This document shows positions 5,509-20,595 of a stretch of 25,720 bases of DNA, piece by piece. Both the position numbers and the translations under genes were made by a program. Origin of the DNA: a virus; IMG/VR virus record IMGVR_UViG_3300046656_000751, positions 1-25,720 of that record. One strand, written 5' to 3'. Position 1 is the stretch's first letter. Every line of letters starts with the position of its first letter. The notes below the pieces were generated by a model. That model had not been told where the DNA came from. It made no database searches and worked only from the letters and a program-made list of their open reading frames with translations.

Positions 5509-6120
5509 ATGAGTGCATTGACTCGTTATACCCAGCAACTTTTTGGATCTTCAGCAGGCAGTAACCAGATGGCCGAGTACGGTAGCTTAGCTGCTGGCAG
5601 CCCTAACCGTTATAACGGCACAACCATCACGCCTGCCATCATCCAAACACTTTCAGAATATTTAGAAGGTTGGTTCGGGGCGGTAGTAGGTCTCAATAGC
5701 CCAGCCATTGAGGATATGAATGCGCTTTGTTATCTCTTCTCCTATCAGATTGCGTATCTCTTAGAGCGCGGTATCCCCGAGTGGGATGTGGGGACAACGT
5801 ACTTCATCGGCGATATCGTCCAGTCAGCAGGCGTACGTTACGCCTCGATAACGAATACGAATGTGGGGAATGCCGTCACGGACGGTGCAAATTGGTTTAC
5901 CGCAACGGACCCCGGCACTCTTACCGTGAACTCACTCCCCTTCACGGCGGGGATGACGTTACCTGCAAATAAGTCGCTCACTTGGCCTAATATGGAAATC
6001 GGAAACGGACAAACAGTCGTCGTCCCAAATAGTGCTAACCTCATCGGGATCACACAAATTACAGTAAGCGGTACGGGAGTATTAACAGCAACGGGCTCTG
6101 GAATTATTAGAGTCATTTAA
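5509..6120 (+). CDS. Tail fibre/collar-like protein with carbohydrate-binding-like segment
   Basis: 203 residues, good Shine-Dalgarno (AGGAG, 7 bases before ATG). Residues 1-85 look like a particle-binding N-terminus (ITPAIIQTLSEYLEGWFGAV then IEDMNALCYLFSYQIAYLLE). Residues about 89-130 (GIPEWDVGTTYFIGDIVQ, then a Tyr-Ala-Ser-hydrophobic strand and a Trp-Phe) resemble the small aromatic carbohydrate-binding fold often found in fibres and chitinases (CBM5/12-like). The C-terminus is a repetitive beta region. The likely role is connecting the baseplate to the distal adhesin encoded next. Identification is by pattern and position only. Confidence 0.55.
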   Translation: MSALTRYTQQLFGSSAGSNQMAEYGSLAAGSPNRYNGTTITPAIIQTLSEYLEGWFGAVVGLNSPAIEDMNALCYLFSYQIAYLLERGIPEWDVGTTYFIGDIVQSAGVRYASITNTNVGNAVTDGANWFTATDPGTLTVNSLPFTAGMTLPANKSLTWPNMEIGNGQTVVVPNSANLIGITQITVSGTGVLTATGSGIIRVI

Positions 6121-7867: not shown

Positions 7868-8920
7868 ATGAAATATCTTATTATTGCAATGACAATAATG
7901 TGTACTCTTGCGTTTGGAAATGATGATGCCCCCCCAACACAAAAGCATCATCACCAGAAGACTTATCACACGAAGAGATACAAAAGGCATGCAAAAGGTT
8001 TGAGACATCCCCTTGCGGCGCGCAAGATGATGGAAGCCATGACGTGCGTATCCTTCTTAGAGAAGGACTCCCCTATCCCTCAATCTACGGACTTATCAGC
8101 GAAGGTAAGCTTGCCTGAGGATCAGGGCCAGTGTGGATCCTGTTGGGACTTTGCCTTAACAAAAGCGCTTAGGTCCGAATACATGCTTGCTAATGTAGAT
8201 CCCGGGGTCTTAGAATTTAATTATCTCCTTAGTAACTGCGGACCCGGTCCACATATGTATGGATGTCAAGGTGGGGATTTTTCAGCAGCGCATTCCTTTT
8301 TGAGTGGGTCGGGTCCCGGATTAAATTCTCAAAACCCCTATGTTCAGAAGATGACTCAATGTAAGCATTTGCCCGTTCAGGCAACGGGCAATGAATACTT
8401 CATGCTAGGGACGAAACAAAATCCAACCTTCAAAGATATTGCCTACGCTGTCGGAGTAGAGCATCACATGCTCGCCATTGACGTCGCCGCAGGGCAAGGT
8501 GAATGGGAAAGTTACTCCGATGGGATTTACAATCATTGCCGCGGCAAAGCATCCAACATAGACCATATGATTGATTTGGTGGGATACAACTGTGAGACGT
8601 CAGTTGATTCACAAGGCCATTGCTCCTTTGATGCAGCGGGGAAGCCCGTGAATAAAGATGGGTACCTCATTGTGCAGAATAACTGGGGTGAGGATTGGGG
8701 AACTGAAGCAGCGAATGGACATGGGGGTTACATGAAAATCCGCATGTACGGTGAGGATGGATCTAAATGTAATGCGATTGCGACGCATGCGCTCATGTTT
8801 AAGATCAATGCGCCGAGTCCCGTGCCGACGCCTAGTCCATCGCCGGATAATAAGAAGTGCTCAGGTTTCCTATGCTCTACCTTCAGTTGTCATTTACCGT
8901 GGTGCAAATGGGAACCTTGA
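7868..8920 (+). CDS. Secreted papain-like cysteine protease (C1A type)
   Basis: 350 residues. Residues 1-17 are a signal peptide (MKYLIIAMTIMCTLAFG), followed by a His/Lys/Arg-rich segment that may be a short propeptide. The catalytic core is complete: oxyanion Gln86 and nucleophile Cys92 in DQGQCGSCW, a CQGGDFSAA region as in papain's disulfide loop, His233 in IDHMIDLVGYN, and Asn271 in VQNNWGEDWG. Residues about 316-331 are a Pro/Ser linker (SPVPTPSPSP) and the last ~18 residues hold four cysteines (CSGFLC...CHLPWC). It should be exported and disulfide-bonded in the envelope or outside. Such enzymes are rare in phages; roles could be envelope or S-layer degradation, or a conversion factor. 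Promoter and ribosome-binding signals are weak. Confidence 0.85.
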   Translation: MKYLIIAMTIMCTLAFGNDDAPPTQKHHHQKTYHTKRYKRHAKGLRHPLAARKMMEAMTCVSFLEKDSPIPQSTDLSAKVSLPEDQGQCGSCWDFALTKALRSEYMLANVDPGVLEFNYLLSNCGPGPHMYGCQGGDFSAAHSFLSGSGPGLNSQNPYVQKMTQCKHLPVQATGNEYFMLGTKQNPTFKDIAYAVGVEHHMLAIDVAAGQGEWESYSDGIYNHCRGKASNIDHMIDLVGYNCETSVDSQGHCSFDAAGKPVNKDGYLIVQNNWGEDWGTEAANGHGGYMKIRMYGEDGSKCNAIATHALMFKINAPSPVPTPSPSPDNKKCSGFLCSTFSCHLPWCKWEP

Positions 8921-10114: not shown

Positions 10115-10198
10115 TGGCGCGGGAAACTGGAATTGAACCAGCATCCTCTCTTACATGCCGGCCAGCGTAAGAGTGCTCTGCCACTGAGCTATTCCCGC
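10115..10198 (-). tRNA. tRNA with expanded anticodon arm; anticodon not assignable
   Basis: Read leftward, a 7-bp acceptor stem (GCGGGAA / TTCCCGC), D-stem GCTC/GAGC, variable loop AGGAT, T-arm GCTGG-TTCAATT-CCAGT and encoded G-CCA end are all in place, and the 5' half (GCGGGAATAGCTCAGTGG) resembles bacterial tRNA-Gly. The anticodon arm is wrong: 26 nt instead of 17. CTCTTAC pairs perfectly with GTAAGAG and encloses GCTGGCCGGCAT, so counting a 5-bp stem the loop is 16 nt, nine more than normal. The loop is nearly self-complementary and contains GCC but not in a standard seven-base loop. It may be a degraded tRNA, a noncanonical one, or a decoy. It lies downstream of a leftward terminator, so it may have its own promoter. 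Confidence 0.6.
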
Positions 10199-19088: not shown

Positions 19089-19556
19089 ATGGTGCTATCA
19101 GGAATACCTATGCCGCCCTCCGTCAACAACGCATATCCTTCATCAAGGACTGGTAGACGCTTCAAATCAAAGGAGCTCACCTCATGGGAAAGACAGTTCC
19201 AAGTCTGGGCTTATGAGCACTACAAAAAAGTTGAGGATATACGAAAGCAAATGCTGACCCGATTACCCGGGCAATATTTACTCATCAAGTCACACTTTTA
19301 TTTTACGCGTCAAAGCGTCATCACTAAGGAAGGGACGCCCAAAAGAAACGGTAAGGGCGGTGGGGATACGTCTAACCGCCTTAAAGTACTTCACGATGCG
19401 ATTAGTAAGTTGATTGGTATAGACGACGTGTGGTTCTTCGATCTTACAGCCACGAAGCGTTTATGCGGGATAAACATGAATCCGCAATGTCTCGTTGAAT
19501 TAGAATGGGTTGAGGCTCCTTGGATGCTAAACCCAACGGCTCCATTGAAGCATTGA
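19089..19556 (+). CDS. rusA: RusA-like Holliday junction resolvase
   Basis: 155 residues from ATG 19089; the adjacent GTG 19092 has slightly better spacing from GAGG. N-terminal strand GIPMPPSVNNAY and the catalytic region GGGDTSNRLKVLHDAISKLI, then GIDDVWFFD (D93, K99, D103, D112, D113) fit the RusA family, which cuts branched recombination intermediates and can help packaging. In most RusA proteins the loop reads DxDN; here it reads DTSN, with Ser95 where a metal-binding Asp would be. Reduced activity or a compensating ligand is possible. The last three codons lie within repeat unit 1 (from 19548). Confidence 0.75.
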   Translation: MVLSGIPMPPSVNNAYPSSRTGRRFKSKELTSWERQFQVWAYEHYKKVEDIRKQMLTRLPGQYLLIKSHFYFTRQSVITKEGTPKRNGKGGGDTSNRLKVLHDAISKLIGIDDVWFFDLTATKRLCGINMNPQCLVELEWVEAPWMLNPTAPLKH

Positions 19557-19760
19557 AATGGAAATACAGGCAGGGCGCGACTCCTGCTGATGGTAGACCG
19601 ATTGCGTTCGGTACATTCGATACCGTCTATTAATCCGTTATCGCACAAGGATTAACGAATAACCTTGCCGTATCGCGTGTCTCCAGTGGGTACTACCAAA
19701 ATATTTTGGGTCGTTCGCCACATGCTTTCCACGCCGCTGTATTTCCATGGCCGGATATAC
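19548..19760. repeat. Tandem structured unit 1 (A-C-B blocks)
   Basis: Block A 19548-19588 (starts AAGCATTGAAATGG), block C CGCGTGTCTC at 19674-19683, block B 19724-19760 (starts GCTTTCCACGCCGCTG). ATGGAAATACAG in A (19558-19569) pairs perfectly with CTGTATTTCCAT in B (19737-19748), so the unit closes on itself. The interior holds hairpins (CGGTA/TACCG, TTAATCC/GGATTAA) and a 14-bp palindrome CCAAAATATTTTGG (19696-19709) between C and B. No gene. The whole 19557-20214 gap has only such structures. Confidence 0.7.
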
Positions 19761-19771
19761 ACTTTTAGACC

Positions 19772-20016
19772 AAGCATTGAAATGGAAATACAGGCAGGAC
19801 GCGATCCCTGCTATCTCATCTATTTTTGATTCCGAGTAACGGTCCCCTCCCTTTTACAGGGGGGCGCTTCTTCCTCGCCCGCGTGTCTCTAAAAAATGAG
19901 TATTGGGGAATCGAACCCTGACCTCTCGGACCATTCTTTCGAATGTGCATATCACCGGTTATGCTTGAACTCATTTTTAGCTTTCCACGCCGCTGTATTT
20001 CCGTGGTCAGGTATAC
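19772..20016. repeat. Tandem structured unit 2 (A-C-B blocks)
   Basis: Block A repeats 19772-19812 (38 of 41 bases identical to unit 1), block C 19880-19889 is identical, block B 19980-20016 is 33 of 37 identical. Interiors differ: here A to C contains CCCCT/AGGGG, and C to B holds the tRNA-like fold (19889-19980), exactly filling the gap. The terminal complement TGGAAATACAG / CTGTATTTCC is kept. Duplication with strong conservation of edges and turnover of contents. Confidence 0.7.
19889..19980 (-). ncRNA. tRNA-like structure without an anticodon
   Basis: Read leftward: a 12-bp outer stem CTAAAAATGAGT / ACTCATTTTTTAG (one bulge), a D-arm GCAT...ATGC with GG in the loop (CCGGTG), a hairpin CATTC-GAAA-GAATG with a GNRA tetraloop in the place of the anticodon arm, a short segment GGTCCGAGAGGTC like a serine/leucine tRNA piece, and a T-arm with loop TTCGATT but only three good stem pairs (GGG/CCC). 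It cannot decode. It may be a tRNA fossil, a mimic, or a processing signal. Confidence 0.45.
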
Positions 20017-20020
20017 ATTA

Positions 20021-20077
20021 ACTAAAAGAAATAGGCACCCAACTATCAGCCGACTAAAAGAAATCAGGGTGTCTCTA
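20021..20077. repeat. Direct and inverted repeats after unit 2
   Basis: ACTAAAAGAAAT occurs twice (20021-20032, 20053-20064). CACCC (20036) and GGGTG (20067) face each other to form a weak stem. GTGTCTCTA at 20069-20077 repeats the edge of block C of unit 2 (19883-19891). From 20078 to 20187 I see only AT-rich DNA with a seven-G tract at 20152 and no gene. Confidence 0.5.
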
Positions 20078-20187
20078 TAAAAAAAAGTAAAATAAATTAT
20101 AGATTCTGAGTAAAATGGTTTAATCATTAAGACTCGCATAAAACTAATCCCGGGGGGGATAAACATTTTTACATTTAAATTATTTAT

Positions 20188-20214
20188 TCTACCTAAGGTA
20201 GACTAGAGTAGACT
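20188..20214. promoter_or_regulatory. Compact repeats at the small terminase start
   Basis: TCTACC-TAA-GGTAGA is a 6-bp inverted repeat (20188-20202); GTAGACT occurs twice in direct orientation (20198-20204, 20208-20214), the last ending one base before ATG 20215. There is no conventional Shine-Dalgarno. An operator or a terminase-binding site would fit. Confidence 0.5.
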
Positions 20215-20595
20215 ATGGGCGCTAAAGGAAATCCAAAAACACCTGGTAGCGGTAGAAAAAAAAACACTCCTAATAAAGTTTCAATTCCTTTGCAAGAATT
20301 GTCTCAAGAAATGGGAGTTGATCCTTTTGAGATTCTACTTCTCTTCGCAGCAGGGGACTGGAAAAAATTAGGTTACCAACAAGAGATCATCATTAAGCAC
20401 GGAGCGCAAGGCGTACAGAATGAAGAGTATGTCATTCAACCCCACGTAAGAGCAAAAGCCGCAGCAGAAGCGGCTCAATATCTCTATCCAAAATTAAAAG
20501 CTATCGATCACAAAATGGACGGTGGAATAAATTTAAATCACGTTGTTGCATATATCCCAGTAAATGGGAGTGAAGCAGTTGAGGATAAGAAATGA
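20215..20595 (+). CDS. Small terminase subunit candidate
   Basis: 126 residues. N-terminal GNPKTPGSGRKKNTPNK, then LQELSQEMGVDPFEILLLFA, GDWKKLGY and the helix VRAKAAAEAAQYLYPKLKAI, a pattern I have seen for the gene just before terminase large subunits in many phages. It would bind the packaging site and present DNA to the motor. The start lies right at short repeats (20188-20214), and a repetitive gap (19557-20214) precedes it. No helix-turn-helix is obvious beyond the basic N-terminus. Confidence 0.65.
   Translation: MGAKGNPKTPGSGRKKNTPNKVSIPLQELSQEMGVDPFEILLLFAAGDWKKLGYQQEIIIKHGAQGVQNEEYVIQPHVRAKAAAEAAQYLYPKLKAIDHKMDGGINLNHVVAYIPVNGSEAVEDKK

Follow-up and report, generated by a model that had tools for sequence, protein, structure and literature searches.

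Two tandem units between rusA and a putative small terminase gene belong to a structured RNA family of phages

We analysed a window that comprises one entire IMG/VR virus record of 25,720 bases. Two units arranged in tandem between a RusA-like resolvase gene and a putative small terminase gene are members of a structured phage RNA family, whose other members carry the same fold in different letters in at least eight other viruses. The family looks uncatalogued, with no match in Rfam 15 or in the open-access literature searched, although a description elsewhere is possible. The best explanation overall, which we consider likely, is a free-standing RNA that moves horizontally between phages, is read from the minus strand of the window and would act in trans. 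It adds a well-supported family to phages, where few structured RNAs of this kind are known and almost none with a function.

Results

The units are bordered by two genes:
19089-19556, plus strand: RusA-like Holliday-junction resolvase (rusA); Pfam RusA 29.6 bits, PHROG 140; its stop codon abuts unit 1
20215-20595, plus strand: putative small terminase subunit (terS), weakly supported; matched by phrog_15261 alone (function unknown), with a Synechococcus phage terS as best phage match (E 0.6)

As first described, the gap contains no gene: it is a single non-coding stretch of 658 nt (19557-20214) reaching terS, with no annotatable gene and no Pfam family match in its translated frames. Three blocks, A, C, and B, recur in the same order in both units. 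Block A spans 19548-19588 in unit 1 and 19772-19812 in unit 2 (38/41 identical), and its first 9 nt in unit 1 are the final codons and stop of rusA. Block C spans 19674-19683 and 19880-19889 (10/10), and block B spans 19724-19761 and 19980-20017, where a recount gives 34/38 identical positions in place of the 33/37 of the initial annotation and leaves the repeat itself intact. The arrangement is far beyond chance: the best ungapped direct-repeat score in the gap is 26 (block B) versus at most 13 in 200 dinucleotide shuffles, and a window-wide direct-repeat scan scores block A at 32 and block B at 26. Blocks A and B of each unit also contain complementary inverted segments, 12 bp long in unit 1 and 10 bp in unit 2. 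Compared with shuffles, the presence of a 12-bp inverted repeat at some point in the gap would by itself be unremarkable; this one falls within both repeated blocks and is a covarying helix in relatives. The hairpin enclosed by C and B is likewise present in both units, though its sequences (domain V1 below) are unrelated; of 300 shuffles each, 9-12 beat its closing pairs in unit 1, and none does in unit 2.

On the minus strand, the blocks resolve into a four-helix fold with two variable domains (R1 and R2 are the covariance models described below):
19784-20002, minus strand: unit 2 RNA core (P1 to P1'), first in minus-strand order; R1 122.9 bits, R2 113.5 bits, in training set
19993-20002, minus strand: unit 2 P1 5' arm, GGAAAUACAG, pairing with 19784-19793
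19986-19990, minus strand: unit 2 P3 5' arm, GCGUG (block B), pairing with 19881-19885 in block C
19890-19979, minus strand: unit 2 V1 domain, 90 nt, closed by an 11-bp stem (P4); 19896-19974 tRNA-like
19880-19889, minus strand: unit 2 block C, internal-loop GAGA and P3 3' arm CACGC
19813-19879, minus strand: unit 2 V2 variable domain, 67 nt
19794-19811, minus strand: unit 2 P2 hairpin, GCAGG-GAUCGCGU-CCUGC
19784-19793, minus strand: unit 2 P1 3' arm, CUGUAUUUCC
19558-19748, minus strand: unit 1 RNA core including the 12-bp form of P1; R1 121.6 bits, R2 110.7 bits, in training set
19737-19748, minus strand: unit 1 P1 5' arm, AUGGAAAUACAG, pairing with 19558-19569
19730-19734, minus strand: unit 1 P3 5' arm, GCGUG, pairing with 19675-19679
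19684-19723, minus strand: unit 1 V1 domain, 40 nt, closed by P4 (GUGG/CCAC and flanking pairs)
19674-19683, minus strand: unit 1 block C, internal-loop GAGA and P3 3' arm CACGC
19589-19673, minus strand: unit 1 V2 variable domain, 85 nt
19570-19587, minus strand: unit 1 P2 hairpin, GCAGG-AGUCGCGC-CCUGC
19558-19569, minus strand: unit 1 P1 3' arm, CUGUAUUUCCAU

P1 closes the RNA, and inside it follow P3, an internal loop, P4 with its variable cap V1, the variable domain V2, and the hairpin P2. Block A thus consists of P2 and one arm of P1, block B of the other P1 arm and one arm of P3, and block C of the other P3 arm. The pattern of conserved edges with swapped contents is explained by this architecture, since the edges are the strands of the RNA core and the contents are the peripheral domains V1 and V2, which differ in length and sequence among members. 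The initial annotation was right that the sequence between blocks is unrelated, but that sequence is structured, which corrects the earlier picture. Conserved residues comprise a CG at the P1-P3 junction, the GRAAG/GAGA internal loop (mostly GAAAG or GGAAG opposite GAGA), and the P2 loop, which is of the GUCGCG type. A pseudoknot between the P2 loop and block C is possible in some members and, judged by eye, is not conserved.

Where P4 is usually GUGG/CCAC, V1 of unit 2 has an 11-bp stem instead, and the interior of this stem resembles a tRNA, with a T-arm (GGGUUCGAUUCCC) and 20.6 bits to tRNA-Sec, for which the gathering score is 47. ARAGORN at default settings calls no tRNA in this domain; relaxed ARAGORN calls it, compared with 5 of 1000 shuffles of V1, a setting that yields 7-13 calls per shuffled window. 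The tRNA likeness is suggestive only. A tRNA-like domain has probably taken the place of V1 in unit 2, and its stem would now serve as P4. Such a capture would have a parallel in GOLLD RNAs of phages, whose linkers sometimes contain tRNAs (PMC12286853).

Homologues were sought in IMG/VR with a pattern made of the P2 hairpin and its loop (GGCAGGNCGCGANYCCTGC), independent of P1. It matched 47 stretches, most of them chance, coding, or simple hairpins without the remaining fold, while five (L137, L155, L157, L162, and L165) are homologous units in unrelated phages. All five have a P1 arm of different sequence with an exact or near-exact complement downstream, and the C and B motifs are recognisable in four. 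Pairing in P3 is kept in L165 (GUGCU/AGCAC), where C and the P3 sequence are altered, and L157 has GCGCG/CGCGC in place of GCGUG/CACGC. Four other loci (L126, L132, L143, and L153) have near-perfect palindromic hairpins, such as CATAGAGGCAGGGCGCGAGCCCTGCCTCTATG, that recur in large phage contigs (230-kb class); they have the hairpin core sequence of the family and lack the rest of the fold.

From the window pair and these five loci, we built the covariance model R1 and scanned the window together with 87 loci, the majority of which had been retrieved through protein similarity to the terminase, portal, or helicase of the window phage. R1 found three new members, L080 (61.8 bits, E 6e-15), L048 (60.7 bits, 1e-14), and L049 (32.3 bits, 1.3e-6), all fetched by protein similarity only and thus outside model building and selection. 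The refined model R2 added a second unit beside the first in the L137 phage (27.8 bits), with its own P1 (GAGACCA/UGGUCUC) and its own P2 (GCCAG/CUGGC), so that two unrelated phages, this one and the window phage, contain tandem pairs. Because P1 and the flanks are still common to both window units, whereas the L137 copies differ even in P1, the window pair would be the younger duplication. In full records, R1 finds one copy per carrier and two in the window, to which R2 adds the second L137 copy. The family has ~11 known members, five of them found via one conserved hairpin itself. Its distribution is patchy, with the RNA present in 3 of 37 records from the protein-similarity search for carriers (G018 and G036 by R1, G019 by R2).

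Sequence searches returned little. Searches with exact block-B patterns (against IMG/VR and against GTDB genomes), with block-A patterns, and with the whole gap (against phage, plasmid, and E. coli collections) gave nothing or chance matches only, and the blocks read as protein on either strand had no Pfam or plasmid match and one meaningless phage match (E 8). BLAST of terL and portal relatives revealed no unit, although the covariance model later found it in three fetched relatives, and a repeat search for tandem units elsewhere in relatives found none similar. A consensus composite of P2-C-B matched none of 50,697 phage and 72,556 plasmid records, and two member sequences had no BLAST match in the same phage records. 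In bulk scans, which score few candidates per genome and give weak negatives, 0 of 398 Pseudomonadota genomes matched R1 or the pattern, and 0 of 299 Bacillota genomes matched R2. An insensitive bulk scan of 247 Bacteroidota genomes gave one borderline match of 27 bits (L182, 1501-1617, minus strand), which has P1 and part of the core and no P2; it is possibly a distant relative of the family.

Compensatory changes support the fold. Given a structure-blind MAFFT alignment of 10 members and no structure, RNAalifold returned exactly P1, P3, P4, and P2, with 16 of 22 pairs kept through two-sided changes. On the same alignment, the named structure pairs 96.4% of cells versus 33.5-44.9% when slid by 1-3 columns; double compensatory changes occur in 17 of 24 pairs, all four helices covary, and 0 of 500 shuffles reach the score. 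The 7-member alignment pairs 95.8% of cells, with double changes in 8 of 10 P1 pairs and, again, 0 of 500 shuffles reaching the score. In seven of the 10 rows, those of the two window units and the five pattern loci, P2 is shared as a result of selection, and its constancy there is hardly informative. The pattern placed no demand on P1, P3, or P4, and P2 itself varies with compensation in L080, L048, and L049. Covariance modelling of the A-C-B unit, as proposed at the outset, found in other phages both the homologues and the compensatory A/B-stem changes whose absence was to count against the unit; this part of the check did not refute it. Among the readings first offered, a pair of structured RNAs is the one supported by homologues, compensatory A/B-stem changes, and covariance-model matches.

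The RNA is probably encoded on the minus strand, on strand evidence that is moderate and includes few G-U pairs. With RNA energies, the minus strand gives the more stable fold in 9 of 10 members (sign test ~0.01, calculated by hand, with members not all independent), and its unconstrained minimum-free-energy structures contain P1, P2, P3, and P4 in both window units, compared with unit 2 only for the plus strand. Helices P1-P3 contain two G-U pairs and no A-C on the minus-strand model. One helix-end change in unit 2 (U-A to U-G on the plus strand, C-A on the minus strand) favours the plus strand. A perfect minus-strand TATAAT at 20096-20101, ~80-95 nt upstream of unit 2 and with a poor -35, is a possible promoter for the RNAs; a sigma-70 promoter scan near the units found none at threshold.

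No family in Rfam 15 (4227 families, including GOLLD, ROOL, hammerhead, and riboswitches) matches at the units in scans of the window and the five homologue loci. A permissive Rfam scan of 19450-20230 gave only tRNA-Sec (20.6 bits), rliE, and STnc180, all below threshold.

The genes beside the units differ between carriers, gene names other than RusA being read from sequences: RusA in the window and L048, terL close by in L162, an HNH endonuclease in L165, a metallophosphoesterase-like gene in L080, and an IMPDH-like gene in L137. The L165 gene (3343-3899), read as an HNH/AP2-type endonuclease, ends 2 nt before the RNA 5' end. Units occupy various intergenic sites in mixed orientation relative to neighbouring genes. 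We found no gene family common to all nine carriers; a diverged partner, or one outside incomplete contigs, is possible. In the L137 phage, the first unit lies between two copies of the 11-bp direct repeat AAATAATATTA (5812-5822 and 5986-5996), an arrangement resembling a target-site duplication. A non-systematic look at the flanks of other units showed no comparable repeat.

Discussion

The patchy occurrence, the varied intergenic places in either orientation, and the lack of a gene common to carriers disfavour a packaging site and favour a stand-alone mobile RNA; since the RNA is tied to no gene, orientation, or partner, it may act in trans. Phages would acquire the RNA horizontally, and its conserved core (the P1-P3 junction, GRAAG/GAGA loop, and GUCGCG loop) would contact a host factor common to the hosts, while V1 and V2 would be peripheral and exchangeable, whether through drift or through recombination at the short blocks of conserved sequence. 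We hold this trans-acting, core-binding role to be plausible, at slightly below even confidence. More tentatively, the family could be a transferable class of phage RNA with its own catalytic activity or host target, for example in anti-defence or host takeover, whose peripheral domains are swapped as modules, including a captured tRNA-like domain that takes over one helix. Compact and tied to no fixed gene partner, the RNA is found in unrelated phages, and its natural tandem pairs, with the same core and different peripheral domains, offer a ready-made experiment on the role of the core.

The closest kind is that of stand-alone structured phage RNAs such as GOLLD and ROOL; the new RNA may work in a similar way and belongs to neither. 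GOLLD is a phage or prophage RNA, over 800 nt in many members, with a conserved and a less conserved region (PMC12286853). Both are stand-alone structured phage RNAs of unknown function, and the tRNAs in some GOLLD linkers recall the tRNA-like V1 of unit 2; the new RNA, however, is about one quarter the size, has other helices and no Rfam match, and does not lie in a tRNA island. ROOL, too, is a stand-alone RNA of phages for which no protein partner is known (PMC12286853), whereas the new RNA is far simpler, with one closing helix and three inner helices, and has no Rfam match.

Two further phage systems invite comparison. The put RNAs of HK022 are structured, cis-acting, ~65 nt long, and present in two copies. 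The window likewise holds two copies of a structured phage RNA, but its units belong to a family of 150-220 nt with mixed gene orientation. The pRNA of phi29 is a phage-encoded structured RNA connected with packaging; the new RNA is also structured and phage-encoded, yet its homologues lack a link to a packaging motor and it has no Rfam match.

An unlikely alternative is that the units are cis-acting RNA elements of the adjoining operon, such as a terminator, processing, or antitermination signal, with a role comparable to put RNAs or 3'-UTR elements. The unit directly follows a gene stop codon in the window, L165, L157, and L162 and lies within 21 nt of one in L080, P2 followed by CUGUAUUUCC is flagged as a weak minus-strand terminator, and tandem pairs occur in two phages. 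These features have to be set against the mixed orientation, the differing flanking genes, a conserved architecture of 150-220 nt that far exceeds the needs of a terminator, and conserved residues in the P2 loop and internal loop, beyond the stems alone.

Improbable, too, is a new self-cleaving or otherwise catalytic class, despite the clustering of conserved unpaired residues at the junction, internal loop, and hairpin loop and the freedom of V1 and V2 from any particular sequence. Self-cleaving hammerheads also occupy phage intergenic regions, sometimes in several copies, with a structured core and variable peripheral stems (PMC3088659). The new RNA differs in being larger, in having no hammerhead match in Rfam scans, and in being known here from sequence alone; it matches no Rfam ribozyme, exceeds most small ribozymes in size, and offers no cleavage site readable from the data.

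The tandem pair with conserved edges and unrelated contents, the AAATAATATTA repeats around one L137 unit, and the patchy distribution would also suit a DNA element working as folded single-stranded DNA, like integron attC sites or IS200/IS605-like ends with free cargo. We judge this quite improbable, as edges are kept between phages only as pairs and not in sequence, conserved residues are internal (block C and the P2 loop), RNA energies favour one strand in 9 of 10 members, and neither a shared recombinase gene nor, in a non-systematic look at the flanks of other units, a comparable repeat was found. Integron attC sites carry conserved core sites and are served by an integron integrase. No such core site was seen by eye in the unit sequences, and no gene is common to carriers. 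The related proposal of non-autonomous elements is not supported as stated, because edges differ between phages and survive only as paired arms, with no shared transposase or other gene.

That the units form part of a pac or cos site recognised by the small terminase, as first proposed, is highly improbable: the window units do lie between rusA and the putative terS, and the L162 unit close to its terL, but most homologues are away from terminase genes, adjoining HNH endonuclease, metallophosphoesterase-like, IMPDH-like, and other genes in either orientation, most terL or portal relatives lack the unit, and the compensatory changes indicate a single-strand fold. A retron-like non-coding RNA, with P1 as a1/a2 and a reverse transcriptase encoded elsewhere, is just as remote. 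In its favour are the length of P1 and the conserved AGC or GGC found next to this closing helix on its inner side. Against it, the 3' arm adjoins a conserved hairpin, not a variable msd, and RVT_1 is absent from all 9 (possibly incomplete) carrier records in a search that was positive in control genomes.

Other features of the window

The interval between unit 2 and terS holds, at 20021-20064 and 20147-20214, a pair of 12-bp direct repeats (ACTAAAAGAAAT) along with a CCCGGGGGGG run and a GTAGACTA repeat; as a cos or TerS-binding site, it is a better candidate than the units. A tRNA at 10118-10198 on the minus strand (Rfam 53 bits) has an encoded CCA and an anticodon loop ~9 nt too long; ARAGORN needs relaxed score or intron settings to detect it and then calls a tRNA-Gln(CUG) that contains a 7-nt insert. 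The phage also carries, at 7868-8920 on the plus strand, a gene for a cysteine protease of the papain family (C1) whose N terminus is signal-like.
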